Positions 42,840 through 46,767 of a DNA stretch of 64,000 nt are shown piece by piece (position 1 is the first letter of the stretch; each line of letters begins with the position of its first letter). The position numbers and the translations under genes were made by a program. The notes beneath the pieces were generated by a model. The model was not told where the DNA came from and made no database searches. It saw only the letters and a list, made by a program, of their open reading frames with translations. The stretch is from Ferrovibrio sp. MS7 (GTDB lineage: Bacteria > Pseudomonadota > Alphaproteobacteria > Ferrovibrionales > Ferrovibrionaceae). Location: the NCBI RefSeq assembly GCF_038404985.1, contig NZ_JBBKBA010000003.1:124001-188000 (forward strand). Reading direction: 5' to 3'.

Positions 42840-43817
42840 ATGCGCGCAGCATGGATCGCCACGGCCGCCTTATTGCTGGCTGCCCCATTCGAGGCTTCGG
42901 CCCAGGCTAACTACCCGAGCCGGACCATCACCATCATCGTGCCGTTTGCTGCCGGCGGCGCCACGGATACGGTCGGCCGTCTCACCGCGCAGGGCCTCTC
43001 GAAGCAGCTCGGCGGCGCCCAGATCGTGGTGGAGAATGCCACCGGTGCGGGCGGCACCATCGGCGCCAACCGGGTCGCCACCGCCGAGCCGGACGGTCAT
43101 ACCCTGCTGGTGCACCATGTCGGCATCTCCACCGCCGCGACGCTGTACCGCAAGCTGCCTTACGACACCAAGACCGCCTTCGCCCCCATCGGCCTGCTCA
43201 CCGATGCGCCCATGACCATTATCGGCCGCGACGACCTGCCGCCGAACAACCTGGCCGAACTGATCGCCTATGTGCAGAAAGAAGGCGGCAAGGTGAGCTA
43301 TGGCAATGCCGGCATCGGCGCCGCCTCGCATCTCTGCGGCATGCTGTTCATGAGCGCCACCAAGGCGCAGCTCAACACCGTGAGCTATCGCGGCAACGCT
43401 CCAGTGATGCAGGATTTACTGGGCAAGACACTGGACCTGACCTGCGACCAGACCACCAACACCACCAGCCAGATCCGCACCAACAAGGTGAAGGCCTACG
43501 CCGCCACCACGCTCACCCGCATCCCGCAACTGCCCGACCTGCCGACCGCCGACGAGGCCGGGCTAAAGGGCTTCGAGGTCAATGTCTGGCACGGCCTCTA
43601 TGCGCCGAAGGGTACGCCGGCAGCCATCGTCGAGCGGCTCTCGGCCGCCTTGAAGGTGGCGCTGCATGAGCCCGATCTGGTAAAGCGTTTCAACGATATC
43701 GGCACCACGCCGGTGGCGGCCGAGCGCGCCACCCCGGCGGCCTTGCGCAGCCACCTCGACAGCGAGATCGCCAAGTGGGCGCCGATCATCAACGCGGCGG
43801 GGCAATACGCCGACTGA
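42840..43817 (+). CDS. Bug-family (TctC) periplasmic solute-binding protein
   Basis: A 325-residue receptor with signal peptide (residues 1-22, ASAQA cleavage) followed by NYPSRTITIIVPFAAGGATD, the signature of TctC/Bug proteins, and KLPYDTKTAFAPIGL. GGAGG is six to ten bases before the ATG. Bug receptors bind carboxylates or aromatic acids. No tctA/tctB permease genes are nearby. It is followed 53 bases later by a tartrate-type dehydrogenase, so a hydroxy-dicarboxylate ligand is plausible. Confidence 0.92.
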   Translation: MRAAWIATAALLLAAPFEASAQANYPSRTITIIVPFAAGGATDTVGRLTAQGLSKQLGGAQIVVENATGAGGTIGANRVATAEPDGHTLLVHHVGISTAATLYRKLPYDTKTAFAPIGLLTDAPMTIIGRDDLPPNNLAELIAYVQKEGGKVSYGNAGIGAASHLCGMLFMSATKAQLNTVSYRGNAPVMQDLLGKTLDLTCDQTTNTTSQIRTNKVKAYAATTLTRIPQLPDLPTADEAGLKGFEVNVWHGLYAPKGTPAAIVERLSAALKVALHEPDLVKRFNDIGTTPVAAERATPAALRSHLDSEIAKWAPIINAAGQYAD

Positions 43818-43870
43818 CCGGTTTTCAGTGCAACCCCAGTTGTCAGTGCAATAGAGGCAAAGCAGAGATC

Positions 43871-44935
43871 ATGGCTCACAGAATAGCGGTTATCCCAGGC
43901 GACGGCATCGGCAAGGAAGTGGTGCCGGAAGGCCTGCGCGTGCTCGATGCGGCGGCACGCCGGTTCGGCATCGACTTCAGCTTCGACAGTTTCGACTGGA
44001 GCTGCGACTACTACCTGAAGCACGGCATGATGATGCCGGAGGACTGGAAGCAGCAGATCGGCGGCCATGACGCCATCTTCTTCGGTGCCGTCGGCTGGCC
44101 CGAGAAGGTGCCGGACCATATCTCGCTCTGGGGCTCGCTGATCAAGTGGCGCCGCGAGTTCGACCAGTATGTGAATCTCCGCCCGGTGCGGCTGATGCCG
44201 GGCATCCCCTCGCCGCTGGCCAACCGCAAGCCGGGCGACATTGATTTCTATGTCGTACGCGAGAATACCGAGGGCGAATATTCCTCGGTCGGCGGCCGCA
44301 TGTTTGGCGGCACCGACCGCGAATTCGTCGTCCAGGAGACGTTCCTGACCCGCACGGGCACGGACCGCATCCTGAAATTCGCCTTCGACCTGGCGCAGAA
44401 GCGGCCGAAGAAGCATCTCACCTCGGCCACCAAGTCGAACGGCATCTCGATCACCATGCCCTACTGGGACGAGCGCGTCGTCGAGATGGCGAAGAAGTAT
44501 CCCGATGTGCGGGTCGACAAATTCCATATCGACATCCTGACGGCGCATTTCGTGCTGCACCCGGACTGGTTCGACGTCGTGGTCGGCTCGAATCTGTTCG
44601 GCGACATCCTGTCGGATCTCGGCCCCGCCTGCACCGGCACCATCGGCATCGCGCCGTCCGCCAACCTGAACCCGGAAGGCGCGTTTCCGTCGCTGTTTGA
44701 GCCGGTGCATGGTTCGGCGCCGGATATCGCCGGCAAGGGCGTCGCCAACCCGATTGCCCAGGTCTGGTCCGGCGCCATGATGCTGGAGCATCTCGGCCAC
44801 CAGAAGGCCGCCGACGCCATCCTGAAAGCCATCGAGGAAGTGCTGGTGGCCGGCCCGCGCACGCCCGACATGGGCGGTCAGGCCAACACCCAGGATGTCG
44901 GCAAGGCCATCGCCGAAGTGGTGGCGAAGGCCTGA
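43871..44935 (+). CDS. Tartrate/D-malate dehydrogenase family (decarboxylating)
   Basis: NAD- and Mn-dependent beta-hydroxyacid oxidative decarboxylase of the isopropylmalate dehydrogenase superfamily, TtuC/DmlA branch, 354 residues. Blocks are MAHRIAVIPGDGIGKEVVPE, SFDWSCDYYLKHG, LWGSLIKWRREFDQYVNLRP (the TtuC-like substrate loop), VVRENTEGEYSSVGGR and the NAD site EPVHGSAPDIAGKG. Likely substrates are tartrate, meso-tartrate or D-malate; the exact one cannot be told. The ATG at 43871 is chosen; 32 upstream codons are unlike the family. Paired with the Bug receptor and the divergent LysR. Confidence 0.9.
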   Translation: MAHRIAVIPGDGIGKEVVPEGLRVLDAAARRFGIDFSFDSFDWSCDYYLKHGMMMPEDWKQQIGGHDAIFFGAVGWPEKVPDHISLWGSLIKWRREFDQYVNLRPVRLMPGIPSPLANRKPGDIDFYVVRENTEGEYSSVGGRMFGGTDREFVVQETFLTRTGTDRILKFAFDLAQKRPKKHLTSATKSNGISITMPYWDERVVEMAKKYPDVRVDKFHIDILTAHFVLHPDWFDVVVGSNLFGDILSDLGPACTGTIGIAPSANLNPEGAFPSLFEPVHGSAPDIAGKGVANPIAQVWSGAMMLEHLGHQKAADAILKAIEEVLVAGPRTPDMGGQANTQDVGKAIAEVVAKA

Positions 44936-44942
44936 TGGATGC

Positions 44943-45218
44943 CTAGACCGTTTCCTTTTCATATTGAATCGCTGCGCCGTGGCGATTTTGCGTTTTGAGG
45001 AGGAGCCCGGCGCAGGGCGTAGTGGGGGCTACGGTCAAGCCGGGCGACGCGCTCAAAACGCAAAAGCGCCCGGCCCCGCAGGGGTTGCGCCTGGAGGCGG
45101 TATCCGCGTCGTCGAAACGCTTGCAGGTACCGCCAGGTACCTGCTGCGCGCTTCTCCTGGCGGGCTACCGCCTCCAGACGCAACGCAGCTGGTTCAATAT
45201 GAAAAGGAAACGGTCTAG
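44943..45218. mobile_element. 276-base palindromic element with perfect 26-base terminal inverted repeats
   Basis: Terminal inverted repeats at 44943-44968 and 45193-45218 are perfect over 26 bases (outer part CTAGACCGTTTCC). Inside are two further inverted-repeat arms: 44982-44999 with 45052-45069 (17 of 18 paired), containing GCCCGGC/GCCGGGC at 45005/45039, and 45085-45102 with 45166-45183 (17 of 18), containing the perfect hairpin GCAGGTACC-GCCA-GGTACCTGC at 45123-45144. The whole could fold as a long stem with two side arms. It has no gene. Each end is CTAG, compatible with insertion at TA. It fills the gap between convergent genes and supplies the TAG stop of the rhomboid gene. Confidence 0.8.
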
Positions 45219-46315
45219 CGCGGCTCCAGGCTGCGCTTGATGGCGGCGATTGCCGGCTTCAACTGCTCGGCAATCGCCTCCGCTTCCCGCAACCGGGCGC
45301 GATCACCGCGCAGGCCGGCGGCATAGCTCTCATACAGCTTCACCCGCAGGCCGGCATAATTCTGCGCCGCCAGCAGCCGTTCGGCGAGCCGGCTTTCCGG
45401 GCGTGGATCGTAACCATTGAGGCTGCGGGCCACCTCACGCCAGGGCTCCAGCAGTTCGCTCTCGATGCGCTGGCGGTAGGCCTGCGGCGTCAGCTTGGTG
45501 CGTTCCTCGTTCAGCTTTTTCGATACATCCGCCAACCGCGCATCCTCGCGGAAGGCTGAGTCGATGGCATCGGCGATAGGCTGTTCCGCTGGATAGCGGT
45601 AGGCCGGTTCTGGCAGGATCGGCAGGATCACGGCGAGGGCCAGCAGAATAGCCGCGATCCCTAAACCAAGCTGGCGCGGCCCGGCGATGCCCGGACGCTG
45701 CAGCGGCGCGGTAAGCAGATAGCCCAGCAGGGCGCCACCGACGAAGCCGCCGCCATGGGCGGCATTGTCTATGCCGGTGGCGGTGATGCCCATATAGACC
45801 GAGAACCCGATGAACAGCGCCAGGTTCACCCATTGCCCGCGCAGCACGCTCAAGGGCACCGCCTTGCCGTTGCGCAGCCAGAAGCTGGCCAGCGCACCAC
45901 CCAGGCCGAAGATGGCGCCCGAGGCCCCGGCGCTGACCGTGCGGTCGGGGCTGAAATAGACACTGGCGAGGCTGCCGATCACCGCCGCGCCGAGATAGAT
46001 CACCAGAAACGGCCAGCGGCCATAGAGCCGTTCCGCCAGGCCGCCCAGGCTCCACAACGCCATCATGTTGAAGCCGAGATGGATCAGGCCGAAATGCAGG
46101 AAGGCAGCGGTTAGCAGCCGCCAGTATTGCCCGCCGGCGATGGCCGGGCCGAAATTGGCCCCCCAGGCCAGATGCACTGATGAATTGGCCTCGATCAGCC
46201 CGCCGCCGAGCGGCAGCAGGGCGACGAAGGCCACCACGTTGATACCGACCAGCCATTTGAAGATCACCGGTAGTTCGGGCCGGTTATGATACAGCAGCCA
46301 GGCGAAGGCCTGCAT
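45215..46315 (-). CDS. Rhomboid-family intramembrane serine protease
   Basis: A 366-residue membrane protease with six core helices. The catalytic Ser132 is in SAGASGAIFGLGGALAS and His187 in IDNAAHGGGFVGG; HFGLIHLGFNMMAL holds the conserved N/H loop region. A soluble C-terminal part of about 120 residues (KKLNEERTKLTPQAYRQRIE) is rich in charged helices. I start at the ATG at 46315; the frame is open to 46399 but overlaps the upstream gene there. The TAG stop lies inside the terminal inverted repeat of the palindromic element, so the last codons may have been altered by its insertion. Confidence 0.9.
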   Translation of the reverse strand: MQAFAWLLYHNRPELPVIFKWLVGINVVAFVALLPLGGGLIEANSSVHLAWGANFGPAIAGGQYWRLLTAAFLHFGLIHLGFNMMALWSLGGLAERLYGRWPFLVIYLGAAVIGSLASVYFSPDRTVSAGASGAIFGLGGALASFWLRNGKAVPLSVLRGQWVNLALFIGFSVYMGITATGIDNAAHGGGFVGGALLGYLLTAPLQRPGIAGPRQLGLGIAAILLALAVILPILPEPAYRYPAEQPIADAIDSAFREDARLADVSKKLNEERTKLTPQAYRQRIESELLEPWREVARSLNGYDPRPESRLAERLLAAQNYAGLRVKLYESYAAGLRGDRARLREAEAIAEQLKPAIAAIKRSLEPR

Positions 46316-46389
46316 GTCGGCGGCCTCTGCTACCTCCTTCTCCGGCTCTTGCCCCCGGTTATCGCCCCGGTTCTCGCCTGGGCCACGGA

Positions 46390-46767
46390 CTATTTGCATG
46401 GAAACGACTTTCGCAGGGCATTGGCGATCAGTTCGGCGCCAGCCTGGGATACCAGGGCAGGATTGAGCGCCAGCCAGTCGCGCACGATGAACTCCACTCT
46501 TGGGCCCGGCACCGCATCCGGCAGGCAGACATTGCCAGCGATCCGCAGCGAATCAAGGATGCCGGCAACATAGCCCTGGCAATAGGCATCGCGCGAGCGG
46601 CAAGGCCGCTCATCTACATTCTGGGCCGGTTGGTTCTGGGCCGGTTTCGCCGGTTCGGCTGCGCGGACAGGCAGCGCCGGCAGCGCGAGCAGAAAAAACG
46701 CCAGCGTCAGCTTGCCCTTGTTTCGCCACAGAGCGCGGCTAGGATCATCAACGATAGACAAGGGCAT
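46390..46767 (-). CDS. Exported Tai/Rap1a-like small protein
   Basis: A 125-residue precursor: n-region, hydrophobic segment KLTLAFFLLALPALPVRA (cleavage near VRA-AE), a Pro/Gln-rich linker, then a compact domain CRSRDAYCQGYVAGILDSL, NVCLPDAVPG and AELIANALRKSFPC with four cysteines. This matches the Rap1a/Tai family, some of which are type VI secretion immunity proteins. No T6SS gene is nearby, so an immunity role is not supported here. Its ATG shares the CATG at 46765-46768 with the divergent GNAT gene. Confidence 0.75.
   Translation of the reverse strand: MPLSIVDDPSRALWRNKGKLTLAFFLLALPALPVRAAEPAKPAQNQPAQNVDERPCRSRDAYCQGYVAGILDSLRIAGNVCLPDAVPGPRVEFIVRDWLALNPALVSQAGAELIANALRKSFPCK

Follow-up and report, generated by a model that had tools for sequence, protein, structure and literature searches.

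RIME of Rhizobium is a palindromic intergenic repeat of Alphaproteobacteria, and it bears a likeness to the element reported here, a 270-bp repeat of Ferrovibrio sp. MS7 which lies in a window of 64,000 nucleotides (the whole stretch of DNA that was analysed). The Bru-RS repeats of Brucella are also palindromic, intergenic and alphaproteobacterial, but have a length of 103-105 bp (PMC2267715). Like our element, the CIR repeats known from Caulobacter and Brucella (Chen and Shapiro 2003, after the description in PMC2229807) are alphaproteobacterial and intergenic, have TA termini, and consist of two hairpin arms with a linker between them. However, in that description they are about 110 bp long, are listed without terminal inverted repeats (TIRs) and carry GANTC in an arm loop, whereas our element has 270 bp and a TIR stem closing the arms, the two being compared here by description only. 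GANTC is not conserved in our element: some copies, including that of the window, have a GAATC, and this is confined to their left TIR. The Correia/NEMIS repeats of Neisseria share with it the TIR (24 bp in theirs) and the TA, and cleavage of their transcripts by RNase III has been proposed; unlike our element, they form a single stem of 107 or 155 bp with no conserved double core (PMC2229807). RUP of Streptococcus pneumoniae is an IS630-family miniature inverted-repeat transposable element (MITE) which, like ours, is small and non-coding, has TIRs, targets TA, has ends resembling those of an IS630 element and is present in many intergenic copies; it has 107 bp, in contrast to the 270 bp, the three-way fold, the core repeated twice in inverted orientation and conserved across bacterial families, and the apparently exchangeable TIRs of our element (PMC2229807). 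IS630 itself transposes into TA and duplicates it (PMC2170065), and an article which is cited there (Tenzen and Ohtsubo 1991) names a preference for CTAG in its title.

Structure of the element in the window

With the YTAR target remnants at both ends, the element occupies positions 44943-45218 of the forward strand. The earlier note had described it as a 276-base element; its span and TIRs hold, while the element proper is refined here to 270 bp (44946-45215, forward strand, GACC...GGTC) plus the duplicated target TA, at 44944-44945 on the left and 45216-45217 on the right, a boundary taken from the TA duplication in the empty sites of sister copies. The left TIR (44943-44968, forward strand), which has its register in common with IS630 ends, and the right TIR (45193-45218, reverse strand) are complementary at 26 of 26 nucleotides (100%), and CTAG is present at both ends of the element, just as had been read from the sequence before.

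The TIRs enclose two long hairpins. Arm 1 (44976-45073, forward strand) contains a core motif M (AGGAG...GCAG-hairpin-CAAG...CGACGC), and arm 2 (45084-45184, reverse strand) contains the motif on its reverse complement. Their inner stems are formed by 44981-44999 with 45052-45070 (19 nt, 95% complementary) and by 45084-45105 with 45163-45184 (22 nt, 91% complementary), in agreement with the two internal inverted-repeat arms noted earlier. The nine-base inner hairpin of arm 2 (45123-45144), also noted earlier, is indeed perfect, with GCAGGTACC/GGTACCTGC at 45123-45131/45136-45144, and shows compensatory changes among copies. On the whole, the predicted fold resembles a three-way junction, and the RNA folding energy is -191.4 kcal/mol compared with -113.1 ± 5.3 kcal/mol for 200 dinucleotide shuffles (z = -14.7).

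The flanking genes face each other, which accords with the convergent arrangement described before. On the left, an isocitrate/isopropylmalate-type dehydrogenase gene (Iso_dh, 43775-44935, forward strand) ends with a TGA located 8 bp before the element. On the right, the rhomboid gene (45215-46399, reverse strand) has its stop codon TAG at 45215-45217 on the reverse strand, read as CTA on the forward strand within the right CTAG, and this codon is composed of the TA and the outermost base of the element.

Copies, empty sites and stop codons

The genome of the window has at least 8 copies of the element: blastn detects five, with four at full length and one aligned over 242 bases, and at least three further copies, which have different ends, come from the covariance model. 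Many copies are also found in the Ferrovibrio genomes G003, G007 and G061, and none or few in several other members of the genus. For 20 copies, 110 + 110 bases of flank with the element removed were searched across the genus, and contiguous, precise empty sites were recovered for most of them; when filled and empty alleles are aligned over the junction, the insertion is seen at TA, with TA on each side. Between G000 and G061, which belong to the same species, three copies are polymorphic, L109 and L107 being empty in G061 and L103 in G000. Our analysis thus shows that the element is multi-copy and recently mobile. It is 270 bp long and non-coding, with a 26-bp perfect TIR, dispersed copies and empty sites with target duplication, as a MITE should be, and a single-copy structured RNA is ruled out by the multiple copies. 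The earlier note had held that a single copy or the lack of an empty site would speak against a mobile element; both blastn and the covariance model find several copies, and sister copies have precise empty sites with duplicated TA. It had also looked to the gap between rhomboid and dehydrogenase for an empty TA site, and such sites exist for sister copies and not for the window copy, for which no empty allele was recovered among the Ferrovibrio genomes. At this locus G061 has the element with 98% identity, and in G003 and G007 (L085, L086) no more than a short gap separates the same dehydrogenase from a convergent rhomboid, which shares about 28% identity with the rhomboid of the window.

Two side observations concern individual copies. 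In L026, L021, L030, L019 and L029, insertions of about 40-54 nt are present within the arms, with a GCGTCCA-TGGACGC palindrome, and appear as a second small palindromic repeat nested inside the element. The empty alleles of about six copies (L016, L028, L034, L029, L103, L022) have TG or CA instead of TA, several of them being TGA stop codons, and by a rough count they exceed what is expected from flank divergence; this reflects either a turnover of stop codons or a target broader than TA.

The target is a TA, preferably one within CTAG/YTAR. Both TAs are intact in 65 elements; among these CTAG is found in 31, CTAA/TTAG in 18 and TTAA in 9, that is, YTAR in 58 of 65, while in the window as a control only 59 of 286 non-coding or stop TAs are YTAR. 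In the same control, 26 of 286 TAs (9%) and 14 of 59 YTAR sites (24%) are located in stop codons, whereas 44 of 111 elements overall are inserted exactly on a stop codon, and 13 of 20 in Ferrovibrio have at least one such exact stop. Insertions exactly on gene stop codons are therefore shown to be much commoner than expected. Genes beside the elements were called by a simple codon model for which the window served as training sequence. On this basis, the stop lies exactly at the TA in 16 of 31 gene-facing sides in Ferrovibrio, and no gene (0) has its end within the element; the corresponding numbers for other genomes are 33 of 97 and 8. Truncation of genes by the element was rejected as the source of this signal, since it predicts about 2 ends inside the element for each end at the TA, against the observed 0 versus 16 in Ferrovibrio and 8 versus 33 elsewhere. 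In the annotation of Rhizobium plasmids, an alpha-L-fucosidase gene and one hypothetical gene end on the last base pairs of the element.

The first base of the element after the TA is G, so a TAA or TAG stop hit by an insertion becomes TAG and the protein stays the same; this rebuilding of the stop follows directly from the sequence. We infer that the CTAG preference, the self-repair of stops and purifying selection would together concentrate surviving copies at gene 3' ends and often between convergent genes, with the CTAG preference alone accounting for a part of this distribution.

Type of transposase

The ends of the element give a 28-bp pattern, TAGAGC followed by YKGAWTCR at positions 21-28. 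In alphaproteobacterial hosts we found six distinct IS630 elements of 1,053-1,070 bp, all starting with TAGAGC and ending with GCTCTA, and in most of them positions 21-28 read YKGAWTCR or nearly so, in the register of the MITE TIR, though the similarity in the motif is limited. The DDE_3 domain was confirmed for the IS630 transposase. Since the end pattern is in register with the IS630 ends, the element is very probably a non-autonomous MITE mobilised in trans by an IS630/Tc1-mariner-type DDE transposase. The earlier note had suggested a MITE inserted at TA in the IS630/mariner manner, and the multiple copies, the empty sites with TA duplication and the in-register IS630 ends of other genomes all support it.

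Genes with DDE_3 are identified in 13 of the 30 host genomes searched and were not found in the other 17. In Ferrovibrio, searches of G000, G003, G007 and G061 (the last being 72% complete) gave no DDE_3 transposase, despite the recent insertions. A related transposase, the lack of which the earlier note would have taken as evidence against its proposal, thus exists with matching ends in other hosts and was not detected in Ferrovibrio. The autonomous relative which it had hoped to see in the same genome did not appear: a search there with the 17-nt TIR of the window, allowing up to 3 mismatches, gave only copies of the family and scattered single hits at the level of the control. An IS5-type DDE_Tnp_1 transposase was also considered as the partner in Ferrovibrio and rejected, being present only in G003. 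With IS630 ends only in other hosts and no transposase in Ferrovibrio, the partner is known by type and not by gene.

The conserved core and its possible role

The covariance model was built from 16 elements, and the copy counts per genome in the wide surveys are lower bounds. It detects the family in 36 of 385 Alphaproteobacteria, covering 31 genera, and in 20 of 299 Pseudomonadota, nine of which are outside Alphaproteobacteria. Matching by structure only was rejected as the source of the class-wide matches, because a sequence-only profile made from the Ferrovibrio copies gives more than 15 bits to 75 of 91 class elements and to none (0) of the shuffled controls. Plasmids of Rhizobium and Sinorhizobium are rich in close relatives of an alphaproteobacterial copy, L305, with 465 places in 205 records; the window element had no match in plasmid records, and phage records gave no match. 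The annotation of four stretches of such plasmids has no feature entry for the element.

In 74 of 92 elements, arm 1 resembles the reverse complement of arm 2 more than it resembles arm 2 in direct reading, and the same holds for 316 of 400 random pairs taken across elements. This shows that the core is one motif M used twice in opposite orientation. The TIRs vary widely in sequence from genome to genome and inside single genomes, and the pairing is kept. The copies L294, L295 and L296 of the genome of the window have the same core with AGGGTC-type ends instead of AGAGC/AGACC, and in several genomes, this one included, the core matches with TIRs of another type (AGGGT..., or AGCCC... in L185, L193 and L196); matching cores with other TIR types are the basis for reading the ends as exchangeable. 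Overall, the core is shown to be conserved in many families, also in elements whose TIR is replaced. The nested palindromes had been called unusual for a simple MITE, and pairing, covariance and sequence-profile searches agree in finding a conserved core there.

In 19 copies, 98.2% of the stem cells are paired, compared with 35-42% in slid controls, and 45 of 97 stem pairs have changed on both sides, a massive covariation; conserved unpaired motifs are present in the arms. Among copies more than 90% identical, the outer stem has 53 one-sided versus 30 two-sided changes, while copies of lower identity have 635 two-sided versus 120 one-sided changes, a shift expected if inserted copies decay while the lineages still transposing stay symmetric. 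Stem mismatches in Ferrovibrio are GT in 39 cases and AC in 7. In 91 elements of other genomes, however, the outer stem has 61 GT and 67 AC, and the arms have GT/AC of 144/100 and 61/73. The asymmetry being absent from the class-wide outer stem, there is no general sign of one selected RNA strand, and selection on one strand was rejected as an explanation. Since the element differs little from its reverse complement, both strands may still have a function under this test. A search of Rfam gave no match above the gathering score, and an identity with a known family was rejected, the only matches being weak ones of plant microRNA type below that score.

Three other explanations of the element are to be weighed against these data. 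It may be an ordinary MITE with a passive interior, whose arms are functionless relics and whose likeness across genera comes from horizontal spread. Hairpins are common in the interior of MITEs (PMC2229807, PMC10969869), and the presence of the element on Rhizobium plasmids fits such spread, but a passive interior is not expected to be recognisable by sequence alone across many families or to survive the exchange of TIRs, and we find this explanation rather doubtful. A functional structured RNA, regulatory or of guide type and mobile by chance, is improbable: the high pairing with two-sided changes, the conserved unpaired motifs, the GT excess in Ferrovibrio and a slight GU excess on the M strand of the arms point towards it, but the asymmetry vanishes in the class-wide outer stem, Rfam has no match above the gathering score, and copies polymorphic within a species mean that no single copy is essential. 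It is equally improbable that the element is moved by its own unrecognised enzyme, which would recognise a hairpin or cruciform of the folded DNA instead of the TIR sequence, with the IS630-like ends coincidental or convergent. The varied TIRs with kept pairing, the many hosts without DDE_3 and the near-equal GT and AC counts of the class-wide outer stem, as expected if a DNA palindrome and not one RNA strand matters, would suit such an enzyme; yet TA duplication, CTAG preference and in-register IS630 ends are what IS630 predicts (PMC2170065, with the title of Tenzen and Ohtsubo 1991 as cited there for CTAG).

For the core within an IS630-moved MITE, we tentatively propose a putative 3'-end structure independent of orientation. 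Each strand has one sense M in its 5' arm, so a transcript would run into the same long hairpin whichever side it comes from, and this hairpin could act in processing or as a block to transcription and would make the insertion tolerable to the host. The main alternative is a DNA hairpin or cruciform serving mobilisation. Also possible, and put forward with reserve, is a wider reading: the family, Pseudomonadota-wide, would have as its conserved unit the double core in its folded form (M, linker, inverted M). This core would have taken up TIRs from different insertion sequences again and again; a single passenger could thereby use more than one transposase family and would be directed to stop codons at the ends of genes.

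If the core is indeed the selected unit and its ends are interchangeable, MITEs would not be merely dead internal-deletion products of one insertion sequence, and a folded passenger could switch carriers. An end that rebuilds the stop codon would then also give a concrete reason for some repeats piling up between convergent genes. The element is absent from Rfam, and an earlier description may exist beyond the open-access literature; as a conserved element of about 270 nt, it could be added to Rfam and would explain many calls of "structured intergenic" sequence.
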